A stretch of 32,040 bases of DNA, taken from positions 1 through 32,040 of the forward strand of contig QHSP01000110.1 of NCBI GenBank assembly GCA_003220495.1. Reading direction: 5' to 3'. The position numbers were made by a program, and so were the translations under genes. The notes under the pieces are model-generated. The model made no database searches and had not been told where the DNA came from. It saw nothing but the letters and a program-made list of their open reading frames with translations. Positions 7,569 to 8,222 of this stretch are shown here, piece after piece. This DNA is from Candidatus Rokuibacteriota bacterium. GTDB taxonomy: Bacteria > Methylomirabilota > Methylomirabilia > Rokubacteriales > CSP1-6. Numbering within the stretch: the stretch's first letter is position 1; each line of letters begins with the position of its first letter.

Positions 7569-8222
7569 TCAAGGCCGGCGCAGCCCTTCGAGGATCTTCA
7601 CCGTGTCGGCCGGCTCCGGCCGCCGCGTGTAGTCCGGGTCGGCGTCGACCGCGCGGACGATGCCCCCGCGATCGATCACGAACCGGGCAGGGGCGGGCAG
7701 CCGCCACGTGCCGTCACCATTGCCGCGCGCGAGATCGATGCCGAACTTCGTGTAGATCTCGCGCAGATCGTCGGGCAAGGTGAAGACCAGGCCGTACGAT
7801 TCGGCGACGCGATTACCAAAATCACGCAGCATCTCGTAGGTGAACGGCTGGGGCTCCTCGGTCTCGCGCGGTGTGCGCGCCACCTGAGGCGAGATGACGG
7901 CGAGGCTCCCGCCCGCGCCGGTGATCTGGGGCAAGGCCTGCTGCAGAGCTGCCAGCTCCGCGTTGCAGTACGGTCACCAGCGGCCGCGGTAGAAGGACAG
8001 CACGACCGGCCCGCCGGCCCGCAGGTCGGCGAGGCTCACCTGGTCTCCGCCGGCGTTGGGGAGGGTGAAGTGGGGAGCCGGCTGGCCCACCTTCGCGATC
8101 CGGCTCATGATCCCGGAGGCCCGGAGATCCTCGATGCTCCGCGCCATGATCGCCCGCGCCTCCGCCGGGATCCGTGCCTTCGACGCCTCGCGCAGCTTGT
8201 CGAGCTGTTCCTGGAGCGTCAT
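7569..8222 (-). CDS. Peroxiredoxin-like (AhpC/TSA) probable selenoprotein, in-frame TGA read as Sec83
   Basis: A thioredoxin-fold peroxiredoxin-like protein of 217 residues if TGA 7974-7976 is decoded. Upstream of it the frame ends VVLSFYRGRW; downstream it continues without a frame change as PYCNAELAALQQALPQ. Family members carry W-C-P-Y-C here, so the TGA falls exactly on the first catalytic Cys and gives U83-P-Y-C86. The rest (VGQPAPHFTLP before; VDRGGIVRAVDADPDYTRRPEP late) is standard. The start is ATG 8222, chosen for GGAGG 6 bases upstream; an ATG two codons earlier overlaps that ribosome site. A hairpin follows the TGA at SECIS distance. Likely role: thiol- or selenol-dependent peroxide or disulfide chemistry. 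The alternative is a nonsense mutation or base error in a Cys codon. Confidence 0.85.
7938..7968 (-). promoter_or_regulatory. Bacterial SECIS-like hairpin after the UGA
   Basis: On the minus strand, 12 to 31 bases after the UGA, GCGGAGCU pairs with AGCUCUGC (8 bp, one G-U) around a GGC loop. Below it CUGC pairs with GCAG across an AAC/A internal loop. The apical loop begins 20 bases after the UGA and starts with GG. That fits the known bacterial requirement for a short stem-loop with a G at the start of its loop some 16-37 bases downstream of the Sec codon, bound by SelB. It lies inside the coding sequence, as bacterial SECIS elements do. Confidence 0.65.

Follow-up and report, generated by a model that had tools for sequence, protein, structure and literature searches.

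Peroxiredoxin-like (Prx-like) selenoproteins in which a UXXC motif replaces TXXU were described in 2005 (PMC1088965). They belong to the Prx-like thiol:disulfide oxidoreductase class, which combines the PF00578 domain with a UxxC or UxxU motif and has been named 'Prx-like' in the Sargasso Sea set and 'Prx-like 1' in the GOS set (PMC1088965, PMC2398784, PMC9312934, PMC13188914). In reviews, selenoprotein subfamilies are defined by domain and motif, and those listed include an OsmC-like selenoprotein (PF02566, UxxT) and SelD selenoproteins with a UxxK motif (PMC13188914). The bacterial SECIS element is modelled as an upper stem of 4-16 bp with an apical loop of 3-9 nt, which carries a G within its first two positions and lies 16-37 nt from the UGA (PMC13188914). 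For one Methylomirabilota MAG, the same source cites a prediction of 63 selenoprotein genes, and selenium-rich biology has thus already been reported for the phylum. A search of one literature collection returned no paper on selenoproteins of Rokubacteria.

The window analysed here, a stretch of 32,040 nucleotides from a Candidatus Rokuibacteriota bacterium, contains a gene for a Prx-like selenoprotein of the AhpC/TSA family (PF00578) on the minus strand (8222-7569). On this strand, the gene starts with the ATG at 8222-8220, 6 nt downstream of a Shine-Dalgarno sequence (AGGAGG, 8234-8229), and ends with the TGA at 7571-7569. Its 217 residues include a predicted selenocysteine (Sec) at position 83, encoded by an in-frame UGA (7976-7974, minus strand) where the Cys homologues have TGC or TGT. 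When this TGA is translated as U, a single open frame results (MTLQEQLDK...SFYRGRW-U83-PYCNAEL...EGLRRP) with the active site W-U-P-Y-C, and Cys homologues carry WCPYC in the equivalent columns. ORF calling with translation table 11 yields two minus-strand ORFs of 114 (8318-7974) and 121 amino acids (7934-7569). The joined product matches Pfam AhpC-TSA over residues 45-191, spanning the TGA (93.7 bits, E 1.1e-26; gathering score 26 bits), and Redoxin with 56.1 bits. An earlier note on this DNA, which gave no strand, had described a peroxiredoxin-like protein in a frame uninterrupted through the TGA, had placed this TGA at the first Cys of W-C-P-Y-C, and had expected annotation to split the gene, and each of these points is borne out. 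Its proposal that the product is probably a selenoprotein is supported: all of its suggested checks that can be done computationally gave a positive result, and the Sec machinery, the conservation of the TGA, the conserved hairpin and the purifying selection downstream were all found.

A lone in-frame stop resembles a nonsense mutation, and the assembly behind the window is a draft, both of which would suit a dead gene in which the TGA arose by nonsense mutation or by misassembly. Against this, separate assemblies within the order share the orthologue, which is present in 28 of 60 genomes; all 29 of its copies have exactly one in-frame TGA and none has Cys. Inspection of 31 non-redundant UGA copies, two of them proteobacterial, placed the TGA at the same codon every time. 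As many independent assemblies share the same TGA, the family as a whole cannot owe it to sequencing error. Candidatus Rokuibacteriota MAGs are the nearest relatives, with 80-88% protein identity, and when 95 genomes of the phylum were searched with a profile, the gene appeared in this order only, always with TGA. Outside the order, two MAGs have TGA, one from Reyranellaceae (L030) and one gammaproteobacterial (L032), and six further relatives (L031, L033-L037) have TGC or TGT. selB scored above the cut-off in both of these TGA-bearing genomes and did not in the genomes of the two Cys relatives tested. On the family tree, three Sec/Cys changes were counted, and a single change is also compatible.

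Purifying selection downstream of the TGA likewise stands against a dead gene. In comparison to the nearest relative, dN/dS is 0.166 before the TGA and 0.18 after it. Values below 1 on either side of the codon were obtained whichever sequence the window's gene was compared with, and also in close pairs. Degraded sequence downstream of the TGA, which the earlier note had named as grounds for abandoning its reading, was thus replaced in the data by constraint, and the relatives align through the TGA as U or C. A second, divergent UGA-containing Prx-like paralogue, 44% identical to the window's protein, was observed in one genome (G009, contig C443, locus L083).

The window's own genome (G000; 5.98 Mb in 159 contigs, 98.4% complete) has a complete Sec apparatus, a further point against a dead gene. 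selB (357 bits) directly follows selA (591.7 bits) on contig C152, and a tRNA-Sec with the anticodon UCA (TCA; 69.8 bits), found by two programs, lies a few kb from them. With selD (336.7 bits, contig C1), all four genes that the earlier note had proposed looking for are present. selD contains one in-frame TGA of its own and is itself a selenoprotein gene (C1:77537-78481, plus strand, L084), in which the context CAG-U-ASK agrees with the UxxK motif of SelD in PMC13188914 and a hairpin with a GATC loop comes after the UGA. Another likely selenoprotein in this genome is a TlpA/ResA-like AhpC-TSA protein (C89:78056-78112, plus strand, L090), where the in-frame TGA of LYFWEST-U-PYCARELPS precedes a possible hairpin. 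Across the order, tRNA-Sec is near-universal (48 of 59 genomes), and its co-occurrence with the Prx-like gene therefore says little. In three of the 28 gene-bearing MAGs (G052, G025 and G041; estimated completeness 77-100%), no selA, selB or tRNA-Sec was found, which could speak for a dead gene. Gaps in the bins are probably the cause, with true loss as the other possibility, and in two of these three MAGs the gene after the UGA has a dN/dS below 0.4 against a near relative.

By itself, the open frame is silent on the residue inserted, and UGA might be read as another amino acid, either through a code in which it means Trp or Gly or through general suppression. However, TGA is the true stop of most orthologous genes, the window's gene included, indicating that UGA has not been reassigned. 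The site also aligns with Cys and not with Trp or Gly, tRNA-Sec(UCA) and SelB are present, and a SECIS hairpin follows the codon. The chance that a residue other than Sec is inserted is accordingly negligible.

The SECIS element (7961-7943, minus strand), supported by pairing and codon bias, has an 8-bp upper stem and a 3-nt loop, GGC (7953-7951), at a distance of 20 nt from the UGA. In stem length, loop size, the GG at the start of the loop and spacing, it agrees with every feature of the published bacterial model (PMC13188914). The earlier note had placed a hairpin with an 8-bp upper stem and a loop starting with GG at 7938-7968; this hairpin is confirmed, with its upper stem-loop at 7961-7943, and the fit to the published model is accompanied by conservation at synonymous sites across species. 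Across 30 distinct sequences, 96.3% of cells are paired, compared with 27-50% in slid controls, and the covariation score of the hairpin was reached in 0 of 500 shuffles. The second stem pair is exchanged from C-G to U-A in eight sequences; this is the only pair changed on both sides, and part of the sequences concerned are related to one another.

Codon choice within the hairpin carries more weight. The Ala codon in the 3' arm is GCT in all 31 genes, a codon used for 4% of Ala elsewhere in these genes. The next Leu is CTA in eight of 31 (1.4% elsewhere), each time with the matching U in the 5' arm, and the residue on the 3' side of the loop, when it is Ala, is encoded by GCA in 10 of 11 cases (4% elsewhere). 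Given these rare synonymous codons in the stem, selection works on the RNA as well as on the protein. Compared with synonymous shuffles, the hairpin shows a modest excess in folding free energy (mean z -1.65), and the codon-bias test is the stronger of the two. A SECIS covariance model used to search the window's own genome recovered its own gene (70 bits) and little else, and is thus specific to the family; one match at E 0.12 is another gene with an in-frame TGA. An Rfam search of the window gave no match. Together with the shared TGA, the downstream selection and the Sec apparatus, the rare-codon constraint in the hairpin makes a dead gene very improbable.

UGA recoding directed by SelB and the SECIS, giving a UxxC thiol or peroxide oxidoreductase, is almost certainly the best explanation for this gene. 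The frame, the machinery, the conservation, the constraint on the SECIS and the predicted fold are direct results of the analysis, and the insertion of Sec in the cell is very likely. According to this model, a ribosome arriving at the UGA (7976-7974) would meet the hairpin (7961-7943) just 3' of it, which would hold SelB with GTP and Sec-tRNA(Sec). SelA and SelD would make selenocysteine on tRNA-Sec(UCA), and the residue would be inserted at the UGA in place of termination. The product is predicted to have a peroxiredoxin/thioredoxin fold with a UxxC site, in which Sec83 would occupy the classical Thr/Ser position and Cys86 that of the peroxidatic Cys, and to act most likely as a cytosolic thiol-disulfide or peroxide oxidoreductase.

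The AlphaFold model has a peroxiredoxin fold with a mean pLDDT of 94.7, and its best matches among solved structures are the Bcp and AhpE peroxiredoxins (probability 1.00, 20-25% identity). In a profile alignment to Bcp (2cx3), U83 stands opposite the Ser of P-A-A-F-S-P-V-C and C86 opposite the peroxidatic Cys, and the Pro is replaced by Arg79. Both the fold and the position of Cys86, together with the PF00578 match, would suit a selenoprotein that follows the classical peroxiredoxin mechanism, where Cys86 attacks the peroxide and Sec83 merely assists in place of Thr/Ser. However, the classical PxxxT/SxxC(U) motif is absent, as the corresponding residues are R79-G-R-W-U-P-Y-C86, with Arg for Pro and Sec for Thr/Ser. 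Furthermore, among 35 sequences, U83 and C86 form the sole invariant Cys-type columns (motif U/C-P-x-C), and the invariance of UxxC/CxxC points to a thioredoxin-like arrangement in which the first residue is the nucleophile. The classical mechanism is therefore unlikely here. From the aligned residues, the likely chemistry is one in which Sec83 would attack a disulfide or hydroperoxide substrate and Cys86 would resolve the intermediate as a selenenylsulfide, which a cellular thiol or a thioredoxin-type reductant would then re-open.

Directly downstream of the Prx-like gene, seven other genomes of this order (L056-L062) carry an intact OsmC-like gene (PF02566, 59.5 bits) that likewise has an in-frame TGA, in the context LAF-U-LMT; in an eighth (L066) an OsmC-like gene lies about 1 kb further downstream. 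This sister-genome gene resembles the OsmC-like selenoprotein of PMC13188914 in both its PF02566 domain and its UxxT motif; the window differs in keeping only a remnant. On the minus strand, at approximately 7568-7446, there is a twice-deleted remnant in three short pieces, which match 'ETRDIVFEADVNLVTPFL', 'HMLKVTVNG' and 'TLLNGAPLS' of the intact gene in L056 and L061. No further copy of the OsmC-like gene was found in the window's own genome. In G017 (contig C351, L079), a deletion fuses the first approximately 140 Prx-like codons to the last part of the OsmC-like gene, with the reading frame preserved. Either true loss or faulty assembly may account for this fusion and for the deletions in the window. 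That the adjoining gene in the window is truly degraded is the one other observation in favour of a dead Prx-like gene, set against the evidence above. The presence of an OsmC-like selenoprotein next door hints that the two form a linked redox module based on selenium. A tentative possibility is a rokubacterial two-selenoprotein operon for peroxide detoxification, where the Prx-like UxxC protein would use selenium to reduce the OsmC-like peroxidase or would act as its partner, and of which the window's species would be losing the second half.

This gene provides a well-supported selenoprotein from an uncultured soil lineage, which standard annotation splits in two, and it adds to the very large published selenoproteome of the Methylomirabilota MAG cited in PMC13188914. 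Being Sec-only in the order and Cys-containing in relatives elsewhere, the family is suited to tests of Sec retention. Among described groups, the Sec-peroxiredoxins (TxxU; PMC13188914) share the fold and the Pfam family with the window's protein, but their Sec is peroxidatic and lies behind a Thr, whereas the window's Sec is at the Thr position with Cys three residues later. The cd02970/AhpC-TSA_2 family (UxxS; PMC13188914, PMC9312934) is also peroxiredoxin-like with Sec at the first motif position; it was set aside, as the window's protein has UxxC, matches PF00578, and gave no PF13911 match at E 0.01. The SelL-related model NF040769 was likewise rejected (22 bits, cut-off 120 bits).

Since both PF00578 and UxxC are present, the gene fits the Prx-like thiol:disulfide oxidoreductase class; it is real but, judged by domain and motif, a member of a bacterial selenoprotein class already described. 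This agrees with the statement in the earlier note that UxxC thioredoxin-fold selenoproteins exist in bacteria. Compared by description, and not by alignment to the published representative WP_010940744.1, the gene and the class share the AhpC/TSA domain, UxxC in place of TxxU, a bacterial SECIS just after the UGA, and widespread Cys forms. In contrast, the rokubacterial subfamily is set apart by a WUPYC motif and by a mostly helical stretch of approximately 40 residues ahead of the domain, and it is Sec-only in 28 genomes of a single order.
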